Assembly: GCA_944358235.1 (NCBI GenBank) | Contig: CALVQL010000005.1 | Coordinates: 1-35,348, forward strand | Source: an uncultured Bacilli bacterium | Lineage (GTDB): Bacteria; Bacillota_I; Bacilli_A; RF39; UBA660 | Direction of reading: 5' to 3' | DNA length: 35,348 nt | Shown here: positions 1,615 to 29,849 of the stretch, piece by piece | Layout: every line of letters starts with the position of its first letter | Position numbering within the stretch: the first letter of the stretch is position 1 | The notes under the pieces: model-generated | Told to the model about the DNA's origin: nothing | The model's input: only the letters and a program-made list of their open reading frames with translations | Databases searched by the model: none | Made by a program: the position numbers and the translations under genes

Positions 1615-2601
1615 TTAAACAACTCGAGATATCGCATCAAGGACATATTCTCCATCATTCAAAACAAAGACGTATCTAACTTCCGAGAGCGAATCTATAT
1701 AACTTTCGCCATCCTCGCTATAATCTCCCAATTCTTCATTAGTATTATATATATTATAAATTTTTCCATCACTTACTAATGCAACCGAAGCCGTGATGAT
1801 TATCTCATTATCCTCCTCAGTAATATCGGTCACAAAATTTACAACATCTTGATCTTCTAGATCTTTATCACTTATCGCAATATAAAATCCTTGACGTTGA
1901 GAATAGACGTAACTCATGCCATCAACAGTAAAATTGACGAATTCAAAATTATTATCTACACCAAATATCGTCACATATTCCTCTTGCAAGCGTGATGATT
2001 CAAAGGAGTATATCATATTATCGACAGTAATATCGTCATCACTAAGATTTTTATAACTCATAGCTAATTTATCAGTTATATCAATATCAGCAGCATCATA
2101 AGCGCCTTTCAACAATTCCAAATTGGTAACATGAACATTATCTAAAAGATAACTATAATTTTCTATATACCATTCTCGATCCTTCACAATCTCTTCATTT
2201 GTATTTTCTTGTGAAGGATTTTCATCCTCACCAACTTCGACAATGCGATATCTATTGAAAAAAGTCAATTCACCGGCTCGATAAAGACGATAAGTTAAAA
2301 AGAGTGATAATCCAATTAAAACAAGTATATAAACCGATAGACGAAAAATCTTAAAATTCTTTCGAGAAATCAAGCGTTTCTGATCTTTGCGTATCGTCTT
2401 TTCGAGTTCCTCTTTCAATTCCTTACCAATTTCATCTTTTATCTTTTCTTTATAGTTGTCATCAAAATCTCTTTGAACACTTTCCTTTATATCTGCGCTC
2501 AATTTAGTAATGATTTCTTTTTTTATATCCGAATAAATATCTTGAATTAATTTTTCTTTTTCTTTGTTCTCCAAAACCTCTTCATTTTTCTTACGTGCCA
2601 T
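1615..2601 (-). CDS. Coiled-coil, single-pass membrane protein of unknown function
   Basis: The start at 2601 is chosen because GGAGG lies 8 bases upstream; an in-frame codon at 2652 has no such site. The 328-residue product begins MARKKNEEV. It has a highly charged Lys/Glu heptad-like region (about residues 5-80, likely coiled coil, cytoplasmic), one membrane segment (about 86-105), an acidic linker, and a C-terminal domain of about 190 residues predicted outside the cell. I recognise no family. The layout (cytoplasmic coiled coil, one membrane pass, outside domain) resembles bitopic proteins of division or wall machinery, but nothing proves that. It lies directly behind the deacetylase gene in the same operon. 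Confidence 0.65.
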   Translation of the reverse strand: MARKKNEEVLENKEKEKLIQDIYSDIKKEIITKLSADIKESVQRDFDDNYKEKIKDEIGKELKEELEKTIRKDQKRLISRKNFKIFRLSVYILVLIGLSLFLTYRLYRAGELTFFNRYRIVEVGEDENPSQENTNEEIVKDREWYIENYSYLLDNVHVTNLELLKGAYDAADIDITDKLAMSYKNLSDDDITVDNMIYSFESSRLQEEYVTIFGVDNNFEFVNFTVDGMSYVYSQRQGFYIAISDKDLEDQDVVNFVTDITEEDNEIIITASVALVSDGKIYNIYNTNEELGDYSEDGESYIDSLSEVRYVFVLNDGEYVLDAISRVV

Positions 2602-2653
2602 GCTAAAACCCTCCATATACCCTATTATAAAATAGTCTTCCCAATTTAGCAAA

Positions 2654-4099
2654 CTAATTATTTATCGGGTGATGAACAGTTGGCGACATCTCATCTAAAG
2701 CTTTAAAAGTGTAACCGTTAGCTAAACCATAATTTATAATATCCTCTAAAGCCTCAGCCGTATGTTTCTTAATATCGTGCATTAAAACGACAGCATTTTT
2801 TTTACTTTTCATTCCGGAAATTACGTTATTATATATTTGCTCTTTATTGGCGCCAGCAGCATCCTCACTATCGACGTTCCAATCGAAGTATATATACCCA
2901 TCCTTCGTCATTCTATCGCTTATAGCACTGACGACTCCACTGGCATATTTCTTACTAACAGTATTACTACTACCACCAGGGAATCTAAACAAACGAGTCC
3001 TCTTACCAGTATATTTTTGCACGATATCATTCATATCATTAAAATCTTTCATATAAGTTTCGACACTTTGATAAATCGACCATTTATGTGTCAAAGTATG
3101 CACCGCAACAGTATGCCCTTCTTCTGCTTCGCGACTGAGAAGATGAATATATTTCGGAAACTGATTAGTAACGAAGAATGTTGCTTTGACATTATATTTG
3201 GCTAAAATATCGAGAATTTCTTCAGTATATACTCCCGGTCCATCATCAAAAGTTAAATATACAACTTTATCATCTTGTTGAGGGTTGGTACTTGCCCCGT
3301 TATATTCATAGACAACTACTGTTCTTTTTTTTATAGCGGTTTTACCGGTTGATGAACTAACCTCATAGATAACCTCGTATTCTCCCGGAACATTCACATC
3401 GACATTGTGCGATATCTTTATATCCTCATCAATACTCTTTCCACAGCCGTCAGAAGCATAAGCTCCCTGCTCGACATACTCTGCTCCCTTTTTCAAATAC
3501 ACTACTTCATTACCGACTAGCTCGATAATCGGCGGAACTTCATCTGTATAGGTAATTTCCACAGCAACTTCGGTTAAATTGCCACTTGAATCACTAACAG
3601 ATAATATAATCCTGTCATTTTCACGTATCTCCTCAACTTTATCTGTTATTACCCCATCATAGTCGTCTACAGCTGTATATTCCAAATTTATATTGCTTTC
3701 TTTATCACAATAATATATCTCTACAGGATTCTTACTGACATTAATTACTGGCTTTGTAGTATCAACTACCGAGATATTTCTCTTTAAAACGAATTCCTCA
3801 TCATTATAATTTATATGATATACCAATTCATAATCGCCCAAAACCTTAACGTTAATGTCATTGTCGACAGTATAATTATACTCTTTTTCATCGACAACCC
3901 GATCATTAATCATTATCTTAAAACCTGGATCTATATAGTTCGAATTAAGAGGAAGATATTGTTGTTCACTGCCGACTAAATCGACGGAAATTATCTCTTC
4001 TTCACGCAATAAAAAGAAACTAATTCCAAAAGAAATTATAACGACAAACAATAATAGAAAAAAGCGATACTTATTAATTCCTAATTGAACCATTTTCAT
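2654..4099 (-). CDS. Membrane-anchored polysaccharide deacetylase with Ig-like repeats
   Basis: A 481-residue NodB-fold enzyme predicted to remove N-acetyl groups from a wall glycan, most likely peptidoglycan GlcNAc. Domain order: membrane anchor (about 12-31), three Ig-like (DUF5011/Big-type) repeats (about 38-115, 120-185, 190-265), then the catalytic domain (about 278-475). Motifs visible: TFDDGP (general base and metal Asp), HTLTH (metal His pair), RFPGG, DWNVDS and LMHD, so all five NodB motifs are present and the enzyme looks active. The start at ATG 4099 follows GGAGG by 8 bases; longer in-frame starts would run through the promoter. First gene of the surface operon. The Ig-like repeats probably hold the catalytic domain away from the membrane. 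A xylan or chitin-like substrate cannot be excluded. Confidence 0.88.
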   Translation of the reverse strand: MKMVQLGINKYRFFLLLFVVIISFGISFFLLREEEIISVDLVGSEQQYLPLNSNYIDPGFKIMINDRVVDEKEYNYTVDNDINVKVLGDYELVYHINYNDEEFVLKRNISVVDTTKPVINVSKNPVEIYYCDKESNINLEYTAVDDYDGVITDKVEEIRENDRIILSVSDSSGNLTEVAVEITYTDEVPPIIELVGNEVVYLKKGAEYVEQGAYASDGCGKSIDEDIKISHNVDVNVPGEYEVIYEVSSSTGKTAIKKRTVVVYEYNGASTNPQQDDKVVYLTFDDGPGVYTEEILDILAKYNVKATFFVTNQFPKYIHLLSREAEEGHTVAVHTLTHKWSIYQSVETYMKDFNDMNDIVQKYTGKRTRLFRFPGGSSNTVSKKYASGVVSAISDRMTKDGYIYFDWNVDSEDAAGANKEQIYNNVISGMKSKKNAVVLMHDIKKHTAEALEDIINYGLANGYTFKALDEMSPTVHHPINN

Positions 4100-4107
4100 A
4101 TAAACAA

Positions 4108-4127
4108 CCTCCGACATTATTATACCA
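4108..4127 (-). promoter_or_regulatory. Promoter and SD of the deacetylase operon
   Basis: An extended -10 (TGG-TATAAT, 4119-4127) lies just before the SD GGAGG (4108-4112). No good -35 is seen. The predicted start point falls at about 4112, giving a very short leader. Confidence 0.6.
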
Positions 4128-4162
4128 TATATTGCAATTTTCACGCCATTTACCTTACATGT

Positions 4163-4195
4163 TTACAAAAAAAGAACGTCTCATCGAGACATTCT
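4163..4195 (-). terminator. Terminator of the mraZ-ftsI operon
   Basis: A 10-bp stem with one G-U pair (4173-4182 with 4186-4195) is followed on the - strand by a run of seven T's. The stem includes the TAG stop of the last gene. Confidence 0.88.
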
Positions 4196-4976
4196 AATTA
4201 ACGGGTTTTAAATTTAAGATAACTTGTTTTAAATCATCAATTTCTTCAAAAGTTTCCGAAATATTATCAATATATTCAGCGCCTTTCCAACCAAAAGGAA
4301 AATCATTTATATAAACATCTTTATTTTTCCAATCGATATACCCTACGACGTCATTTCCAATGACAATTAACGGAAAATATCGATTATAGAACCTAAAAGA
4401 AGGAGTCATATTATTTCCAACACAGTCTTCTGCAATCATGCGACGAAAAGATGCATTCTCAGGAGTATTATTTTCTAAATAAAGTTCATAAGAAGTATCA
4501 TTACTATCGAGGTTGACGACATAACCTCCATCTTTTAAAGACACACTGACAATTTGCGTCATAACAACGTTAAAATTGTGATATTGCCTCATCAACAACG
4601 ACAAAAAATCACAGACATCTCGAATCTTTAATTCGTATTTTCCTTCTAGATATCTTGCATTCTCATCACACAAAGTTACACTTGTACGAGCAAACGAAAA
4701 ATCAGAAAGAAATTGATAATACTTTCGATCATATGAAGCTAAAGCGATTATTCTTTTATCGACAACCCCTAAAGACATCATCTCACCATTTAAAGAAGAA
4801 AAATCAGCAGATATATGTTCTTTCAAAAAATTATATTCTGACGAATCATATCGTACACATAATTCATGAAATTGTTCAGTAGAATCGATAAGTTTCAATA
4901 TTATTCCGTTTTCACCAATTGAATGGCGATACACCATACAATTTATAAAAACCGGCTCAAATATATTATTTTTCAC
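4194..4976 (-). CDS. Unrecognised protein at the end of the division operon
   Basis: 260 residues, GTG start, with AGGA about 10 bases upstream. No signal peptide or membrane segment is visible, so it is predicted cytoplasmic. Composition is mixed, with Asp/Asn-rich stretches and no nucleotide-binding or catalytic motif that I recognise. It begins 12 bases after the stop of the preceding single-pass membrane protein and ends in the operon terminator, so it is very likely cotranscribed with mraZ, rsmH, ftsL and ftsI. That context suggests a role linked to division or septal wall synthesis, but this is inference from position alone. Confidence 0.65.
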   Translation of the reverse strand: MKNNIFEPVFINCMVYRHSIGENGIILKLIDSTEQFHELCVRYDSSEYNFLKEHISADFSSLNGEMMSLGVVDKRIIALASYDRKYYQFLSDFSFARTSVTLCDENARYLEGKYELKIRDVCDFLSLLMRQYHNFNVVMTQIVSVSLKDGGYVVNLDSNDTSYELYLENNTPENASFRRMIAEDCVGNNMTPSFRFYNRYFPLIVIGNDVVGYIDWKNKDVYINDFPFGWKGAEYIDNISETFEEIDDLKQVILNLKPVN

Positions 4977-4988
4977 AAATCATCAGTC

Positions 4989-5567
4989 CTATTTCGTAAC
5001 TTTAGTTGTATCAACTTTAAAATCATAATAAACATCTGCGGACGTCGAACCTTCTTCCGTCGATGCTTTAATTACAAAGTGTAAATTATCCATATATTTT
5101 AACACTTCACTAGTAAAGAAATACTCACTCTTATCTGCTTCAGCAAAGCTCCACCCACTCATTTCATCTACAACATCTTTTAAAGAAGTACTATTTTCCA
5201 ATGAATTACTACGCGTCGCTAACTCGATATAATTGTTTTTACTATCGACGACATAATATCCAATTTGATATGAATATATATCTTGATCATCAGCCAAATA
5301 TAAGGCATTTGATGCATAAAAATAATTCATATCACCATTAGTAAAATAATGAATATTAGCAACTTGTACCTCTTCCTCGTCGACATATCCTACAAATATT
5401 CTGTTTTTAGCATTATATTGTGATATGTATATAACTAAAAAGGCATTAATAAATAGTAATACTACAATTAAAGGAACAGGGCTGTTAAAGAATTTCTTCA
5501 ATCCTCGAACAACCCCCGGAGTTTCTTTCTTTTCGATTTTCTTCTTGCTTTTATCATTCTTCGTCAT
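4989..5567 (-). CDS. Bitopic membrane protein of unknown function next to ftsI
   Basis: About 192 residues. The N-terminus is strongly basic (Lys-rich, residues 1-25), followed by one membrane segment (about 32-52, PLIVVLLFINAFLVIYI) and an outside domain of about 140 residues rich in Tyr, Asp and Ser. The start is ambiguous: ATG at 5567 (AAAGG 8 bases upstream), ATG at 5573 and GTG at 5576 are all in frame and overlap the end of ftsI by up to 23 bases, which points to translational coupling. The topology matches bitopic divisome subunits such as DivIB/FtsQ, but I see no POTRA-like or other known domain. No family recognised. Confidence 0.65.
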   Translation of the reverse strand: MTKNDKSKKKIEKKETPGVVRGLKKFFNSPVPLIVVLLFINAFLVIYISQYNAKNRIFVGYVDEEEVQVANIHYFTNGDMNYFYASNALYLADDQDIYSYQIGYYVVDSKNNYIELATRSNSLENSTSLKDVVDEMSGWSFAEADKSEYFFTSEVLKYMDNLHFVIKASTEEGSTSADVYYDFKVDTTKVTK

Positions 5568-7731
5568 CTTCATCACCTTTTCCTGTCACCAACGATCCGG
5601 GACTAGTATTTACTAGATTTGCAACAATCGTCGAATTCAAGTCTATTATATCACCTGCATTATAGTTTGTCGATTGAATATAACCGTATCCAATCAGTTC
5701 ATATTTAATTCCGACGATATTACAGAAACTGATAAATTCACTACTACTCCATCCCATAACATCTGGCATCGTAATCTGTGATCCATTCGTAATCAAGAAC
5801 ACTTTAGAACTCTGTAAAGTCGTCGTATCGGCTTCCGGATATTGACCAATTACAACATCACCATCACCAATAACAATCGGTGTTACTCCAAGTTTTCCCA
5901 ACTTAGCTGAAGCTGAAATTGTTGTAGTATTAATAAAATTATCGACAGTTATTACTTTAGAATCATCTTTCTCACTTGGTCTTTCATCAAAATTACGGTA
6001 TTTAGCGACACTTTCAACTAACTCTTTAATAATAGCTCCCATCTTAGAACTATTACCTTGAAAGTCTTTTACGGCAACATAGATAATATATTCAGGATCT
6101 TCTTTTGGAAATATTCCCGCAAACGAACGAATAACATTATACGTACCAGTAACATACTGTCCATCATCACCAATATAATTAGCAGTTCCAGTTTTTCCAA
6201 TTAAACGCACAGCATCAGTATGATAAACAGCTCCAGTTGCAGCCGAATCTTCACCATTTACCGTCAAATCGAGTAACTCGATCATTTTATTTACCGTCGA
6301 TGTCGAATAAACTTTTGCTACCTCATTACGTTTACCTTGGTAAACTGTTTCGCCAGTGTTGGGATCCTCGATCTTATCGATAATATATGGTTTTAAAACT
6401 GTACCATCATTTGTCAAAGCAGTTAGAGCTTGAATCATCTGAATAGGAGTTACCGTTATTCCTTGGCCATATGATGCTGCAGCAAGTTCTGTTCCATATT
6501 GAATATCAACTTCTCCTTTATACTCATTAGCTAACTCAATACCCGTTTGAGCACCGAATCCCAAACTAGTATAGTAATTACTCAAAGTTTTTATTCCTAA
6601 CCTCTGAGCCAGCATAATAGCAGCAACATTAGAAGAATAAGTAAAACCGGTATCAAATGTTATCTCGCCCCAACCGACACGATTCCAATCCTTTATAGTA
6701 TAATCATCGACAGTTATAGTTCCTGACTTATAAGTTTCTGTTCCATCATACTTTCCTTCTTCAATTGCCGACATAAACGAAAATATCTTCATCGTACTAC
6801 CAGGTTCATAAGTATATGAAGTCAACGGATTATTATAATTCGTAATATTTAGTTTATTTGGATCAAAACTTGGACTAGTAGCACTTCCAATAATTGCTCC
6901 CGTCTTCGCATCCGCAACCGTCAACGACACCCAACTCGGATCATATGCCTCAAATTCCGTAACAGCATTTTCCAAATACAATTGAACGTTAGCATCTAAA
7001 GTTAAGTAGACATCCATACCATCCTCAGCCGGAGTAGTATAAGTCATTCTATCTGCCATTTGATAACCATACGCATCCTTTTGATAAGTGATAGAACCAT
7101 CAGTTCCTTTTAAATAACGATCAGTGTACCCTTCTATACCTAACTCTCCAACAATCTCTTCAGACCCATCATATTTCTTGGCATAACCGATGACATACGA
7201 AGCAAAATCGCCATTAGGATAATATCTTTTTGACGTCTTAGTAAAATCAATACCAGGTAAAGAGAGAGCCTCAATTTGCTGTTTAGTTATCTCACTAATT
7301 CCTCTACCACCAGGACCTAATTCAACTTGATATAAATCGCTATTTAAAAGGCCTAATATATACTCCTTAGTCATGGTTTCATCCAATTTAATGAGAACTT
7401 CCGATAAAGCTTCAGCCGTCATCTCTTTGTCGACAACATGTTTAGGATATCTCTCATCAGTTGTACGGCTATCCGAAAGATAAGCAATAACCGTATAAGA
7501 ATTCGTATTTTGAGCAAGTGCGGTACCATTACGATCGTAAATTGCTCCACGTGATGCTTTTAAGGTACGCGTAGCAGTTGTACGACTTTCTGCAAGTTCT
7601 GTCAGATTAGTACCTTCAACTTCAGTTGCTAAAGCAACATATCCTAGCTTTACAAAAAAAAGAGCAAACAAAAGGACAATACAAAGAATAAATATCCAGT
7701 TTATTTTAATTGTATTGCCCTTAAATTTCAT
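5554..7731 (-). CDS. ftsI: Septal peptidoglycan transpeptidase (PBP2B/FtsI) with PASTA repeats
   Basis: A 725-residue class B penicillin-binding protein that cross-links septal peptidoglycan on the outer face of the membrane. Visible: membrane anchor (11-33), the dimerisation-type sequence RGAIYDRNG (61-69), and the transpeptidase domain with STMK (catalytic Ser312), SSN (366-368) and KTGTA (513-517). Two C-terminal PASTA repeats follow (about 593-655 and 656-712), ending in an acidic tail. All catalytic motifs are intact. AGAGG sits 7 bases before the ATG. It follows ftsL by 22 bases in the standard mraZ-rsmH-ftsL-ftsI order, which favours the vegetative division enzyme (pbpB). A SpoVD-like sporulation paralog has the same architecture and cannot be excluded on sequence alone. 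Confidence 0.93.
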   Translation of the reverse strand: MKFKGNTIKINWIFILCIVLLFALFFVKLGYVALATEVEGTNLTELAESRTTATRTLKASRGAIYDRNGTALAQNTNSYTVIAYLSDSRTTDERYPKHVVDKEMTAEALSEVLIKLDETMTKEYILGLLNSDLYQVELGPGGRGISEITKQQIEALSLPGIDFTKTSKRYYPNGDFASYVIGYAKKYDGSEEIVGELGIEGYTDRYLKGTDGSITYQKDAYGYQMADRMTYTTPAEDGMDVYLTLDANVQLYLENAVTEFEAYDPSWVSLTVADAKTGAIIGSATSPSFDPNKLNITNYNNPLTSYTYEPGSTMKIFSFMSAIEEGKYDGTETYKSGTITVDDYTIKDWNRVGWGEITFDTGFTYSSNVAAIMLAQRLGIKTLSNYYTSLGFGAQTGIELANEYKGEVDIQYGTELAAASYGQGITVTPIQMIQALTALTNDGTVLKPYIIDKIEDPNTGETVYQGKRNEVAKVYSTSTVNKMIELLDLTVNGEDSAATGAVYHTDAVRLIGKTGTANYIGDDGQYVTGTYNVIRSFAGIFPKEDPEYIIYVAVKDFQGNSSKMGAIIKELVESVAKYRNFDERPSEKDDSKVITVDNFINTTTISASAKLGKLGVTPIVIGDGDVVIGQYPEADTTTLQSSKVFLITNGSQITMPDVMGWSSSEFISFCNIVGIKYELIGYGYIQSTNYNAGDIIDLNSTIVANLVNTSPGSLVTGKGDEDDEE

Positions 7732-7753: not shown

Positions 7754-8047
7754 TTATTCGACTACTACTATATTGTCATTATTATAACTTAGTCCATAAG
7801 CTTTTGCAACATCTTGAATAGTCGATAAACTTGCTAACTCATCGACTTGCATCGAAAGACTAGCGTTAATGTTTTCCTGTTCTTCTATTTGTTGTCTAAG
7901 CTTTTCCACCTCGATATTTGAACTAGATAAACTAGCACTAGAATAGACTATTACAACAGGAGTGAGTACTGCAAAAATTGCAATCAATGTCATAATTAGC
8001 TTTTCTCCTTTGCGCAATTTTATAACCGGTCCTGTCGTCTTTTTCAT
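7754..8047 (-). CDS. ftsL: Cell division protein FtsL
   Basis: 97 residues: a short basic cytoplasmic tail, one membrane segment (about 18-38), then a leucine-zipper-like coiled coil (about 45-75, EVEKLRQQIEEQE) and a short C-terminus. FtsL sequences are poorly conserved, so the call rests on size, topology and the position between rsmH and ftsI. In Bacilli FtsL forms a complex with DivIC and DivIB that activates the FtsW-FtsI synthase. The start lies 1 base from the rsmH stop, and its SD is inside rsmH. DivIC has a similar layout, but the location makes FtsL the better name. Confidence 0.85.
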   Translation of the reverse strand: MKKTTGPVIKLRKGEKLIMTLIAIFAVLTPVVIVYSSASLSSSNIEVEKLRQQIEEQENINASLSMQVDELASLSTIQDVAKAYGLSYNNDNIVVVE

Positions 8048-8048
8048 T

Positions 8049-8963
8049 TTAATCTACCCTTTCTATTACTCTTAACTTTGCACTCTTCGAGCGACTATTT
8101 TCCTTTATCTCCTCTTCTATAGGAAGAATCGGCTTTTTATTCACCACTTTTATATGTGGACGATACTCTAAGGGGATATTTGGAAGTCCCTTTACTAGAG
8201 GATCGATTTCACTTTCACACTTAAAAAATTTCTTGACAATTCTATCTTCTAACGAATGGAATGTAATTACACACATTCGCCCATTTGGTTTTAACATATC
8301 AACAGCTTGCGGCAAAACCTCTTTTAAATAATCGAGCTCATGATTAACTTCAATACGAATAGCTTGAAATATAACTCGTTCAGGATGTCTCGTAAGAAAA
8401 TATTTCTTAGGAACACACCCCTTTATGACCTCAACTAATTCCATCGTAGTATTTATCGGTCGATTTTTCACAATTGCCGAAGCAATCACTTTAGAAAATT
8501 TCTCTTCAGCATAGCGATAAAATATATCTGTAAGATCAGCAACATTATACGAATTTACAATGTCAAATGCGCTCATCTTTTGTCTTCTATCCATTCGCAT
8601 ATCTAAATGTGCATCCTTCATAAAAGAAAATCCTCGTTCAGCATCATCAATCTGCGGAGAAGAAAATCCTAAATCCAGAAGAATTCCATCAACTTTTGAT
8701 ACGCCAATTTCGTCCATACATTTTTTTAAATCCTTAAAATTTGCATGAATTATTTGGAAACAATCGCTAATAGCACTTAATCGCTTTGAACTGAACTCTA
8801 TTGCTTGATCATCTTGATCAAAACCATACAGATATCCAGTTTTAATTCTTTTTAAAATTTCAGAACTATGTCCTCCATATCCCAAAGTACAGTCGACATA
8901 TATTCCATCTTCATGAATATTCAAATTTTCAATAACTTCTTCGAGCAAAACACTTTTATGCAT
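8049..8963 (-). CDS. rsmH: 16S rRNA (cytosine1402-N4)-methyltransferase RsmH
   Basis: A 304-residue SAM-dependent methylase (formerly MraW) that methylates C1402 in the ribosomal P site. Motifs: HKSVLLEEVI at the N-terminus, the SAM-binding YVDCTLGYGGHS, the acidic GFDQD, DGILLDLGFSSPQ, and the C-terminal FHSLEDRIVK. Length is normal for the family. The start is placed at ATG 8963, preceded by TAGGTGAT; an in-frame GTG at 8972 lies inside that SD. It overlaps the end of mraZ by 8 bases, so translation is probably coupled. Confidence 0.96.
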   Translation of the reverse strand: MHKSVLLEEVIENLNIHEDGIYVDCTLGYGGHSSEILKRIKTGYLYGFDQDDQAIEFSSKRLSAISDCFQIIHANFKDLKKCMDEIGVSKVDGILLDLGFSSPQIDDAERGFSFMKDAHLDMRMDRRQKMSAFDIVNSYNVADLTDIFYRYAEEKFSKVIASAIVKNRPINTTMELVEVIKGCVPKKYFLTRHPERVIFQAIRIEVNHELDYLKEVLPQAVDMLKPNGRMCVITFHSLEDRIVKKFFKCESEIDPLVKGLPNIPLEYRPHIKVVNKKPILPIEEEIKENSRSKSAKLRVIERVD

Positions 8964-9396
8964 TAAAATCACCTACAGAGAATAAATTTTCGGCGATATC
9001 AGATAATTGATCTTCGTTATCACTGATGAATTTATCCCATGATTCCTTCGCCCATATTTCTAAACGATCGTTAGCGCCGATTATAACGCACTCTTTCGTT
9101 ATATCGGCGTATTCGATCAAGGGGGAGGTAATACTAACTCGACCAGAACGATCGAATTCACACATAGCAGCACCAGATAAGAAGAAACGTGTAAAATTAC
9201 GGGCATCTTTTTGCGTAAAAGGCAATGTCTTTAACTTATCGACTATCTTATTCCACTCGACAAGTGAATAGACGAAAAGACATTTATCCAAACCGCGAGT
9301 TACAATGAAGCTTTCCCCTATTTCCGAACGAAATTTTGAGGGAATAACTAAACGGTTTTTTTCATCAATGTTGTGATGATATTCACCCATTAGCAT
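8956..9396 (-). CDS. mraZ: Transcriptional regulator MraZ
   Basis: 146 residues with two AbrB-like (SpoVT-type) DNA-binding folds. The N-terminus MLMGEYHHNIDEKNR closely matches the Bacillus form MFMGEYQHTID. The second half carries the typical SGAAMCEFDRSGRVSI. MraZ binds direct repeats upstream of its own operon and usually represses it. I place the start at ATG 9396, with GGGGG 6 bases upstream. An in-frame upstream ATG reads through the operator and has no SD; ATG 9390 is a poorer alternative. First gene of the division operon, autoregulated through the three GTGG boxes immediately upstream. Confidence 0.95.
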   Translation of the reverse strand: MLMGEYHHNIDEKNRLVIPSKFRSEIGESFIVTRGLDKCLFVYSLVEWNKIVDKLKTLPFTQKDARNFTRFFLSGAAMCEFDRSGRVSITSPLIEYADITKECVIIGANDRLEIWAKESWDKFISDNEDQLSDIAENLFSVGDFNA

Positions 9397-9405
9397 TAAA
9401 ATCCC

Positions 9406-9430
9406 CCACTTTCTTCCACAATCTACCACT
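9406..9430 (-). promoter_or_regulatory. MraZ operator: three GTGG direct repeats
   Basis: On the - strand [A/T]GTGG occurs three times with an exact 10-bp period (cores at 9426-9429, 9416-9419 and 9406-9409). Regularly spaced direct repeats just before mraZ are the known kind of MraZ target. They lie in the leader, downstream of the predicted start point, and the last one merges with the SD. Confidence 0.8.
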
Positions 9431-26461: not shown

Positions 26462-27220
26462 TTAAACAGCCGTATATCCACCGTCAATCGGTAAGATTAC
26501 TCCCGTGACATAACTGGCCTCTTCACTACCTAAGAAAATAGCACCAGCATTTAACTCACCAGCATTACCATATCTTCCAACAGGAACGGTAGCTTTCATG
26601 TACTGTGTAAATGAATCAGTAATCAATGTTTCATGCGTAAGTTCGGTATCAAAATATCCCGGACAGATTGCATTACAAGTTATGCCATATTTAGCTAACT
26701 CAGCAGCAACGGCACGAGTAAAATTGATTACACCACCCTTGCTTGTATGATAAGCAACAGTATCCATTGCCATATTACCAACCATACCATACATCGAAGC
26801 AATATTGATAATACGTCCATAATTATTTTTCTTCATGATATTCGCAAATGCACGAGTGACATAGAAGACACTATCCATATCTGTTGCAATAGTAAACTTC
26901 CACTCCTCATCACTCATATTTAGAACACCGTTATTTTTAGCGCTTCCGGCACAATTAACAAGAACATCGACACGTCCAAAGTGTTCTTCTACCTTAGACG
27001 CTGCTGCATTTACTGAAACGACATCAGTAACATCACACTTTATAGGAAGAAAATCTCCTCCATATTCTTTTAGACGTTCGGCAATCTCAACTAAACGTTC
27101 TTCACGACGTGCAAGCAAAGCAATTGATGCACCCATTTTAGCAAAACCTTCAGCCATTTGAAGTCCTAATCCTGATGAAGCACCAGTTATTACGACTACT
27201 CTACCTTTATAATTAAACAA
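26462..27220 (-). CDS. Short-chain dehydrogenase/reductase
   Basis: A 252-residue classical SDR. The NAD(P)-binding motif TGASSGLG (13-20), NCAG (about 89-92), catalytic Ser in NIASMYG, the YHTSK Tyr/Lys pair, and the C-terminal SYVTGVILPIDGGYT are all present, so it should be active. An Arg pair after the second beta strand (LLARREERL) favours NADP(H). It resembles gluconate 5-dehydrogenase and FabG-like enzymes; the substrate is unknown. It starts at TTG with AAAGG 9 bases upstream. Last gene of the FIST-ALDH-SDR operon, 14 bases after the aldehyde dehydrogenase. Confidence 0.9.
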   Translation of the reverse strand: MFNYKGRVVVITGASSGLGLQMAEGFAKMGASIALLARREERLVEIAERLKEYGGDFLPIKCDVTDVVSVNAAASKVEEHFGRVDVLVNCAGSAKNNGVLNMSDEEWKFTIATDMDSVFYVTRAFANIMKKNNYGRIINIASMYGMVGNMAMDTVAYHTSKGGVINFTRAVAAELAKYGITCNAICPGYFDTELTHETLITDSFTQYMKATVPVGRYGNAGELNAGAIFLGSEEASYVTGVILPIDGGYTAV

Positions 27221-27234
27221 GTATATCGACCTTT

Positions 27235-28671
27235 CTACTTCGTAATATTTTTTAAGATAACCGTCTTAGTACGTGACATTTCACGTAACGTCGTCATAAT
27301 TCCTTCATTACCAATTCCAGAATATTTCCAACCACCAAACGGTTGCTCGAATGATCTAAAGAAGCTTGCACCATTTACGACAAAGCCACCACATTCGAGT
27401 TTTTCGCTAACCTTAATAGCTTTTTTCATATCACTAGTAATTATTCCGCCAGATAGACCATAAATTGATTGATTAGCAATTTCGATAGCTTCATCAATCG
27501 AATCAAATCCAATAATAGGAATTACCGGACCAAAGATTTCCATATCTTTTGCTACCGCCATATCCTTTGTTACACCGTCTAAAATCGTCGGTGTATAGAA
27601 GGCTTTATTTCTTTCCCCACCGATAACTAGTCTGGCACCTTCCTCTATTGTTTGATTAACTTGTCTTTCGACTTCTTTAGCAGCTTCCTCACTAATTAGG
27701 CATCCAAATTCCGTCTCCGGATCACTTGGCATACCATATTTTATCTTTTTGATTCGTTCGATCATCTTCTCGATAAATTGATCTTTAACCGAATTTTCAA
27801 CTAGGAATCTCTTAGAAGCACAACAAACTTGACCTGTGTTGTAAAGACGTCCCCAGACAGTCTCTTCAACAGCTAAATCCAAATCGCCATCAGCACAGAT
27901 GATGAATGCATCGTTTCCTCCAAGTTCTAAAGAACTATGGGCACAATGCTCAGCACAATTACGCGCTGCATCAATTCCGGCCTCAGTACTTCCAGTAAGT
28001 GTTACCATATCGACTTTAGGATTCTTCGTAAGAGCGGTTCCAATTACTGAGCCAGATCCATGAACAACTTCGATGACTCCGGCTGGTACCCCTGCTTCTA
28101 CTAACAATTCAACATAAGCCGTTAACGTAAGCGGATTAACACTTGCTGGTTTTAAGATAACTGAATTTCCCATTAATAGTGCTGGAGGTACTTTATTAAT
28201 AAATATATCACTTGGGAAATTAAAAGGAATTATTGCAACGACAACTCCCAATGGTTGTTGAATAGTATATTGTATCGTGTTTTCCTGACCAGCCTCAGTT
28301 CCACGATATATTACATTTCCATAATCGTGTTTAACTCTTTCGACATAAGCCGGAACACCAATTTGAATATTTCTTACTTCATTATAAGCTTCTTTTAAAG
28401 GCTTACCAGTCTCATCAGAAAGTAATTTAGCAAGTTTATCTTCATCACGTTTAACTAATTCAGCAAAATGTGAAATAATTTCACATCTCTCAACAACAGA
28501 CTTATTCTCCCAACTCTTTTGCATTTCACGTGCACAATCGACAGCACGATTGACATCTTCAACTGTTAAACTTGGAACTGTATCGACAAGTTCACCAGTA
28601 GCGGGATTGATAACATCGATTGTCTTTCCATCAGAAGAATCGACCCACTCTTTTCCTATTAAACTCTTCAT
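27235..28671 (-). CDS. NAD(P)-dependent aldehyde dehydrogenase, succinate-semialdehyde type
   Basis: A 478-residue ALDH superfamily enzyme oxidising an aldehyde to the acid. Seen: PFNFP and ILKPAS (cofactor site), TGSTEAG, ELGGND (general base Glu), NTGQVCCASKR (catalytic Cys in a Cys-Cys pair), and the FGPVIPI and PFGGWKYSG motifs near the end. The NTGQVC-ASKR stretch resembles the YneI/Sad group of succinate-semialdehyde dehydrogenases, but ALDH substrate prediction from motifs is weak. It lies between a FIST-domain sensor and an SDR enzyme, which suggests a short pathway from an alcohol or keto compound through an aldehyde. AGGAG precedes the start. Confidence 0.9.
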   Translation of the reverse strand: MKSLIGKEWVDSSDGKTIDVINPATGELVDTVPSLTVEDVNRAVDCAREMQKSWENKSVVERCEIISHFAELVKRDEDKLAKLLSDETGKPLKEAYNEVRNIQIGVPAYVERVKHDYGNVIYRGTEAGQENTIQYTIQQPLGVVVAIIPFNFPSDIFINKVPPALLMGNSVILKPASVNPLTLTAYVELLVEAGVPAGVIEVVHGSGSVIGTALTKNPKVDMVTLTGSTEAGIDAARNCAEHCAHSSLELGGNDAFIICADGDLDLAVEETVWGRLYNTGQVCCASKRFLVENSVKDQFIEKMIERIKKIKYGMPSDPETEFGCLISEEAAKEVERQVNQTIEEGARLVIGGERNKAFYTPTILDGVTKDMAVAKDMEIFGPVIPIIGFDSIDEAIEIANQSIYGLSGGIITSDMKKAIKVSEKLECGGFVVNGASFFRSFEQPFGGWKYSGIGNEGIMTTLREMSRTKTVILKNITK

Positions 28672-28688
28672 TTATCTCCTCTTTTCTA

Positions 28689-29849
28689 TTATTTACCAAA
28701 TCCTGTAAACGACAATGACAAGCCACCTACAGTATTAGCAGAATGTTCATGAGTTCCATATTCACCAAAAGTAAATACCATTAAGAATTCCTTATCCTTA
28801 GTAATCTCTTTAACTCTTGGATAAATTTCTTCTTCTTTAAATACTAATTGAAGTCCTAATCTACGACCACCACAATGTACTAATAAATAACTCTGTGGTT
28901 CTTCATTCATCATCGAATTCAATTCTTCGATTGTCTTAGGATTGGCACTTACCATTTCTTCTGGTTCCATATGAAGTTGGATAATTGCCGTCTTCGGCAT
29001 CAATTTAGCACCGATATTCATCGACAAATCTTCATTAGCAAACATCGGATGACGTACAGCTGTTACTGATCCAATCGGATCTTTTACACCTAATGGATTG
29101 AATATCGTCTCTGTTAATAGATTATTTCCCATTACCTCATCGACATTCTTATCCGTCCATCCACAATATTTTTCTACTGCTGGAACGCCATCAATTGTAA
29201 CTAATGTACGATCATTCTTTACCTCTGTAATGATACCGACATTATCAGTTTCATTATATTGTCCAGTATAGATATTCTTCATCTCGGCATCGGTTGCAAA
29301 TAGAGCAATTGCACATCCATCAGCAAATACTTTATCATCAACGATAACGCTCCAATTTCCTTCAACTGTATTATCAGCAGCACTTCCACCAAATACTGGA
29401 ATCTTACCAACAACATCTTGAACACCTAAGAGATATTCCTCTTCTTCTTTTGGACTAGCAGTCATGAAGAAATAATTTGGCTTTCTCTCGCCTAATTCTC
29501 TCATAGCTTCACGTGCCAAACGACGGCCAATTTCGCGTGCTGACTCATTAGTTTTTTCACTTCCAGAAACACCAACGAAAACGTCACCACCAAAGCTCAT
29601 CATTCCAGAATATCCTGTCTCATCGTTCAAGTATCCATCTTGTGTACAAATTGCTGCACTACTAGTACAACCAATTATATGAGCACCACTAACGCTCTTT
29701 ACCCCTTCAATGATCTTCCCCTGATCCATTACACAAGAAGTAAAGAGTAAACCAACTTTTGCCGTACTCAAATTAGCCATAGTAGCAGTCTCTACACCGT
29801 TTTGAAAACTATCACTATTACGACTATAACCAACTTTCGTATTTAACAC
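28689..29849 (-). CDS. FIST-domain sensory protein
   Basis: 386 residues made up of FIST_N (about 1-190) and FIST_C (about 200-370) with nothing attached. FIST_N marks are IIGCTSSAAIC and the GSAADN region; FIST_C has LLVHCGGRRLGL near the end. FIST domains are thought to bind small ligands such as amino acids and are usually fused to signalling modules; here the domain stands alone. No membrane segment is seen. It starts at GTG with AGGAGG 8 bases upstream. First gene of the operon, followed by ALDH 17 bases later, so it may sense or hold a substrate or product of the two enzymes. Confidence 0.85.
   Translation of the reverse strand: MLNTKVGYSRNSDSFQNGVETATMANLSTAKVGLLFTSCVMDQGKIIEGVKSVSGAHIIGCTSSAAICTQDGYLNDETGYSGMMSFGGDVFVGVSGSEKTNESAREIGRRLAREAMRELGERKPNYFFMTASPKEEEEYLLGVQDVVGKIPVFGGSAADNTVEGNWSVIVDDKVFADGCAIALFATDAEMKNIYTGQYNETDNVGIITEVKNDRTLVTIDGVPAVEKYCGWTDKNVDEVMGNNLLTETIFNPLGVKDPIGSVTAVRHPMFANEDLSMNIGAKLMPKTAIIQLHMEPEEMVSANPKTIEELNSMMNEEPQSYLLVHCGGRRLGLQLVFKEEEIYPRVKEITKDKEFLMVFTFGEYGTHEHSANTVGGLSLSFTGFGK

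Follow-up and report, generated by a model that had tools for sequence, protein, structure and literature searches.

Which genes follow ftsI in the division operon of an uncultured Bacilli bacterium, and do they serve the septal wall? The window analysed here is a whole contig of 35,348 nucleotides from a draft genome of 1.07 Mb in 90 contigs (85.6% complete). Open reading frames and family searches place yqeG, yqeH and mutL on its minus strand, then mraZ, rsmH, ftsL, ftsI and two further genes, P0002 and P0001. This agrees with the layout proposed in the earlier note, in which a gene for a bitopic membrane protein overlaps ftsI and is followed by a second gene and a terminator; open reading frames, families and the hairpin all confirm it. 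The features of the locus are as follows.

9406 to 9429, minus strand: three GTGG boxes at 10-nt spacing just upstream of mraZ, a putative MraZ operator (pattern scan)
8956 to 9396, minus strand: mraZ, with the start set at the ATG at 9396 by comparison with relatives
8049 to 8972, minus strand: rsmH (mraW), by family match
7754 to 8047, minus strand: ftsL, matching TIGR02209 over the cut-off
5554 to 7731, minus strand: ftsI, class B PBP; the top NCBIfam score is PBP2x, below the cut-off of that model
4989 to 5573, minus strand: P0002, bitopic protein, conserved partner gene of ftsI (ORF 4989 to 5576)
4194 to 4976, minus strand: P0001, 260 amino acids from a GTG start; ORFan, with no predicted transmembrane helix according to an earlier reading of the sequence
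4173 to 4195, minus strand: intrinsic-terminator-like hairpin and T-run overlapping the P0001 stop codon (sequence scan)
2654 to 4144, minus strand: polysaccharide deacetylase with surface Ig-like domains (Pfam), past the terminator; a homologue lies close to P0002 in several relatives
1615 to 2652, minus strand: protein of 345 amino acids, past the terminator; homologues lie close to P0002 in relatives

The ftsI product carries transpeptidase and dimerisation domains and two PASTA stretches. The P0002 frame encodes 195 amino acids counted from the GTG, with alternative in-frame ATG codons at 5573 and 5567, and overlaps ftsI by 14 to 23 nt according to the start codon used; 12 nt separate its stop from the P0001 start. 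Codon statistics indicate that both are genes, since the log-odds in their own frames (0.247 for P0002, 0.215 for P0001) are similar to those of the neighbours while the other five frames are negative. The chance of 260 stop-free codons at this GC content is about 2e-9.

The two genes had also been assigned to a shared promoter controlled by MraZ. The GTGG triplet in front of mraZ is the sole occurrence in the window and was found in 0 of 100 shuffles, with a pattern that was composed after the sequence had been inspected; a stricter GTGGG pattern had given no match. The triplet is retained in 10 of the 11 relatives checked, the first box being altered in the remaining one. The MraZ site of Mollicutes consists of direct repeats of AAAGTG[T/G] according to an excerpt of PMC8475190, and the third GTGG box fits this repeat as given there. 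MraZ control of the operon promoter is plausible.

A further suggestion was that P0002 and P0001 replace mraY and murD. We find no support for it, as this genome has its mraY on contig C9 and its divIB on contig C41, and the gene after ftsI varies among relatives. A strong FtsI-like match was obtained in 55 of 58 family genomes and one locus was surveyed in each of 53; the survey omitted two genomes, namely one whose locus is truncated at the end of a contig and another that gave a distant match only. Four of the 53 loci, including the window, carry P0002 behind ftsI. The others carry varied genes, including some that resemble pilin, TasA or transporter genes (by eye). In 52 loci an ORF of 70 amino acids or more lies downstream of ftsI; none of these loci showed a match to MraY in the stretch inspected, which extended to about 2.5 kb at most and was shorter near contig ends. 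A dcw core block ending after ftsI is therefore common in the sampled family and not peculiar to this genome.

A position that tolerates such different genes may be easily occupied. On this view P0002 would be an envelope protein of general function that took up the place behind ftsI in the ancestor of its clade and has stayed there through inertia, tied to division by co-transcription only. The assortment of genes in other genera speaks for this, as does a second bitopic family of about 178 amino acids found at the same position or one gene further in four other genera (L095, L116, L118 and L125). This family was considered as kin of P0002 and rejected (profile comparison probability 1.9). 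What argues against a mere tenant is that, among sampled clade members with visible context, the gene after P0002 changes and P0002 itself is never displaced from ftsI. We regard this explanation as improbable.

P0002 has no match in Pfam or NCBIfam, so its distribution was followed with profiles of its own. It is present in all nine genomes of its genus and in 11 of 11 genomes of a neighbouring genus, g43. A 9-row profile run against 291 family genomes from 150 genera gave strong matches (E at most 4.9e-17) in 16 genomes of six genera; the other 10 of the 26 matching genomes (E of about 2e-4 to 9e-4) were treated as chance matches and not counted, their context not inspected. With a 21-row profile and 288 genomes of the order, strong matches (E at most 1.3e-9) were obtained in 19 genomes, and the weaker ones (18 of 37 matching genomes) were excluded in the same way. 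Because strong matches are confined to so few genera (6 of 150), P0002 is no core part of the divisome.

Within its range the gene is tightly bound to its neighbour. The expectation that its order would be conserved in relatives is borne out, with ftsI immediately upstream of the P0002 homologue in 31 of 32 loci where the upstream gene is visible. These comprise 25 of 26 loci examined (24 of the 25 with ftsI; L057 starts at a contig end) and seven more loci of g43 (7 of 7). The single exception, L058, is a remote homologue with a helicase-like gene upstream (by eye). Taking a dcw gene to be one that belongs to the mraZ-rsmH-ftsL-ftsI block or directly adjoins it, P0002 qualifies in these 31 loci, and in genome G132 it lies inside a near-complete dcw cluster.

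P0002 is also co-inherited with ftsI. We built an FtsI tree of 50 rows from 24 P0002 carriers and 26 of the 49 surveyed non-carrier loci, a non-carrier being a locus with no profile-matching ORF downstream of ftsI within the stretch inspected. Of the carriers, 23 from six genera form one clade with support of 100/98. The remaining carrier, G132, stands apart next to a non-carrier with modest support (85/64). The simplest reading is a single gain in the clade ancestor followed by retention, and the G132 copy would either date from before that gain or have been acquired independently. In G132 the order is mraZ-rsmH-ftsL-ftsI-X-mraY-cysS-murG-murB-divIB-queH-ftsA-ftsZ, where X is a P0002-like gene of 243 amino acids; names were given by eye from protein starts, except for ftsI and mraY, which were identified by BLAST. 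The MraY of G132 is 61% identical to that of the genome studied here. It follows from this order that the P0002 family sits within a division cluster proper, alongside a separate divIB.

The coexistence with divIB bears on the possibility that P0002 is a diverged DivIB/FtsQ, to which its DivIB-like topology and kind of gene neighbourhood might point. Besides G132, where both genes lie in one cluster, eight of the nine genus genomes encode a separate POTRA_1 protein elsewhere; in the four of these loci that were read, a murG-like gene precedes it (by eye). No POTRA or FtsQ match was found in P0002 or in 21 family members. We therefore reject this identity, which we consider scarcely credible. 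In the four divIB loci of the genus (L112 to L115), queH-like, pilin-like and further shared genes follow divIB (by eye).

An AlphaFold model built from 21 sequences (mean pLDDT 87.1) shows residues 1 to 16 at low confidence, then a short helix, a transmembrane helix at residues 33 to 56 and, starting at residue 58, an outer domain rich in beta strands. The N-terminal tail is basic: counted from the ATG at 5567, its first 28 residues include 10 K/R versus 3 D/E, and an orientation with the N-terminus inside and the C-terminus outside therefore fits. Searches of PDB folds returned generic sandwiches of Ig-like or SOD-like type (best Foldseek E 0.015; VIA Z at most 6.6 over 93 residues, rmsd 3.4), and no family was ruled out on this basis. 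Glu146 is invariant among 22 rows of the family, and Asn31, Gly106, Tyr108 and Leu132 are nearly so. P0002 diverges faster than its neighbours, mean identity in the nine genus genomes being 49% compared with 66% for FtsI and 72% for FtsL. Identity at codon position 2 (0.72) exceeds that at position 3 (0.47) in the same genomes, which is a sign of purifying selection.

FtsL, DivIC and DivIB resemble P0002 in having one transmembrane helix on the N-terminal side, an outer C-terminal domain and a gene encoded together with ftsI. Unlike them, P0002 is confined to a few genera and has no match to those families. It cannot be placed with FtsL or DivIC by Pfam DivIC or TIGR02209, neither of which matched, and the gene at 7754 to 8047 is FtsL.

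Relatives of the outer domain were found in another kind of protein. A class-wide search with a widened P0002 profile gave matches in 19 of 395 genomes, and six places among the weaker matches were examined further. Several of these weaker relatives have an N-terminal HTH_3 domain, then a transmembrane stretch and then an ectodomain of the P0002 type. One is encoded in the same genome on another contig (G000:C6, 236 amino acids; L174, 28036 to 28476), with counterparts in G044, G050 and G185 (L176, L178 and L163). Compared with a profile of these HTH-transmembrane-ectodomain proteins, the 21-row P0002 profile gave a probability of 95.1 (E 3.2e-8) over 147 columns that take in the transmembrane stretch, at 16% identity. 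With the widened profile, to which two remote rows belong, the probability was 97.4 (E 1.5e-11) over the ectodomain only, and the control against the unrelated bitopic family gave 1.9. The regulator rows were picked through the widened-profile match, so these values are somewhat flattering; the 21-row profile did not report the own-genome paralogue at E 0.001. These comparisons support a shared descent of the transmembrane helix and ectodomain of P0002 with those of membrane-bound HTH_3 (XRE-type) regulators. The regulators share with P0002 the transmembrane helix and a related extracytoplasmic domain; P0002 differs in lacking an HTH match, in having only a short basic N-terminal tail and in being encoded behind ftsI. 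A related beta-rich region occurs in a lipoprotein-like protein of another family of the class (L160 in G440), in which a lipoprotein-like N-terminus (by eye) replaces the transmembrane anchor; no ftsI was seen within about 1.5 kb on either side of it.

This kinship raises the alternative that P0002 is an envelope sensor or the partner of a regulator, i.e. an HTH_3-regulator module without its DNA-binding head, which monitors the cell surface, perhaps pairs with the HTH paralogue and owes its place in the ftsI operon to matched expression, not to a part in the divisome. The presence of an HTH_3 relative in the same genome and in three others, together with profile scores far above the control, would favor it. 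However, the paralogue lies on a different contig, the choice of regulator rows and the miss by the narrower profile weaken the comparison, and linkage to ftsI that is fixed in six genera and found inside the dcw cluster of a seventh points to division. We regard this alternative as unlikely.

For this one clade of uncultured Bacilli, we prefer to see P0002 as a lineage-specific accessory of the complex that builds the septal wall, with a probability of roughly one in two. This reading draws on gene order and inheritance bound to ftsI, on a fitting topology and on an ectodomain that is otherwise used on membrane-bound regulators. P0002 is the X of a mraZ-rsmH-ftsL-ftsI-X operon, probably under MraZ control, and would be made together with FtsL and FtsI. 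One helix would anchor it in the membrane, its beta-rich ectodomain may contact FtsI/FtsL or the new wall, and the protein could tune or position septal synthesis. We infer the septal location, the contact with FtsI/FtsL and the effect on wall synthesis. Counting against such an accessory role are the few genera, the fast divergence, the variable position behind ftsI and the related ectodomains encoded away from ftsI. A more elaborate version makes P0002 a lineage-specific divisome subunit whose transmembrane helix and ectodomain, shared with a transcription regulator, act as a surface-sensing module gating FtsI, possibly paired with the HTH paralogue so that the state of the septal wall feeds back on transcription. 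We consider this version doubtful.

The dcw cluster is widely conserved and wall synthases have diversified in Firmicutes, according to an excerpt of PMC10693644. Since the cluster is so widely conserved across bacteria, a new gene fixed directly behind ftsI throughout a clade offers a strong lead towards a regulator of septal wall synthesis not described before. The kinship of P0002 with the outer part of DNA-binding regulators makes a link between the state of the septum and gene control directly testable. The best-ranked literature matches included none on the P0002 gene, which does not by itself establish novelty in print.

The earlier note had seen new divisome or septal-wall factors in both genes. 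For P0002, linkage to ftsI agrees with this and the role is inferred, whereas for P0001 nothing ties the gene to division. Nor is P0001 conserved behind ftsI, as had been expected for a cytoplasmic member of the operon. It is present in one of 193 family genomes, its own, and absent from the eight other genus genomes, where the sole match (G005, E 0.003) runs through six stops. Across 395 class genomes the search returned the own locus and two weak matches (E 3.9e-4 and 0.006 per genome), taken as chance, and no credible homologue was found in either set. No usable match was obtained in Pfam, NCBIfam, PHROGs, PADLOC, PDB sequences, viral contigs or plasmids. P0001 is therefore an ORFan, specific to this genome within the searches made, and its single-sequence structure model is poor (pLDDT 44).

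Two apparent likenesses were rejected. In G050, an ORF at the end of a contig, downstream of P0002, resembled P0001 by eye, and 10 of 500 shuffles scored equally high; used as a query against 243 genomes, this ORF found its own locus and scattered weak matches in 48 genomes. An internal repeat formed by the two halves of P0001 was equalled by 18 of 500 shuffles. P0001 is probably co-transcribed with the operon and is probably a passenger, because it is situated between P0002 and the terminator whereas the operons of relatives seem to stop directly after P0002. A strict ungapped scan placed a terminator directly behind P0002 in two of 11 relatives, and hairpins with T-runs in further relatives were judged by eye only. 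In the sister genomes the gene after P0002 is a deacetylase in three, a papain-like peptidase in three and another gene in one, and one locus ends with the contig (by eye; deacetylases checked).

In genera g1 and g43, homologues of the products of 1615 to 2652 and 2654 to 4144 lie in the neighbourhood of P0002 and form a second recurring block. Elsewhere in the window, three genes at 26462 to 29849 are adjacent and on the same strand; two of them, judged by eye, encode an SDR-like oxidoreductase and an aldehyde dehydrogenase-like protein, and Pfam identifies the product of the third as a FIST-domain protein.
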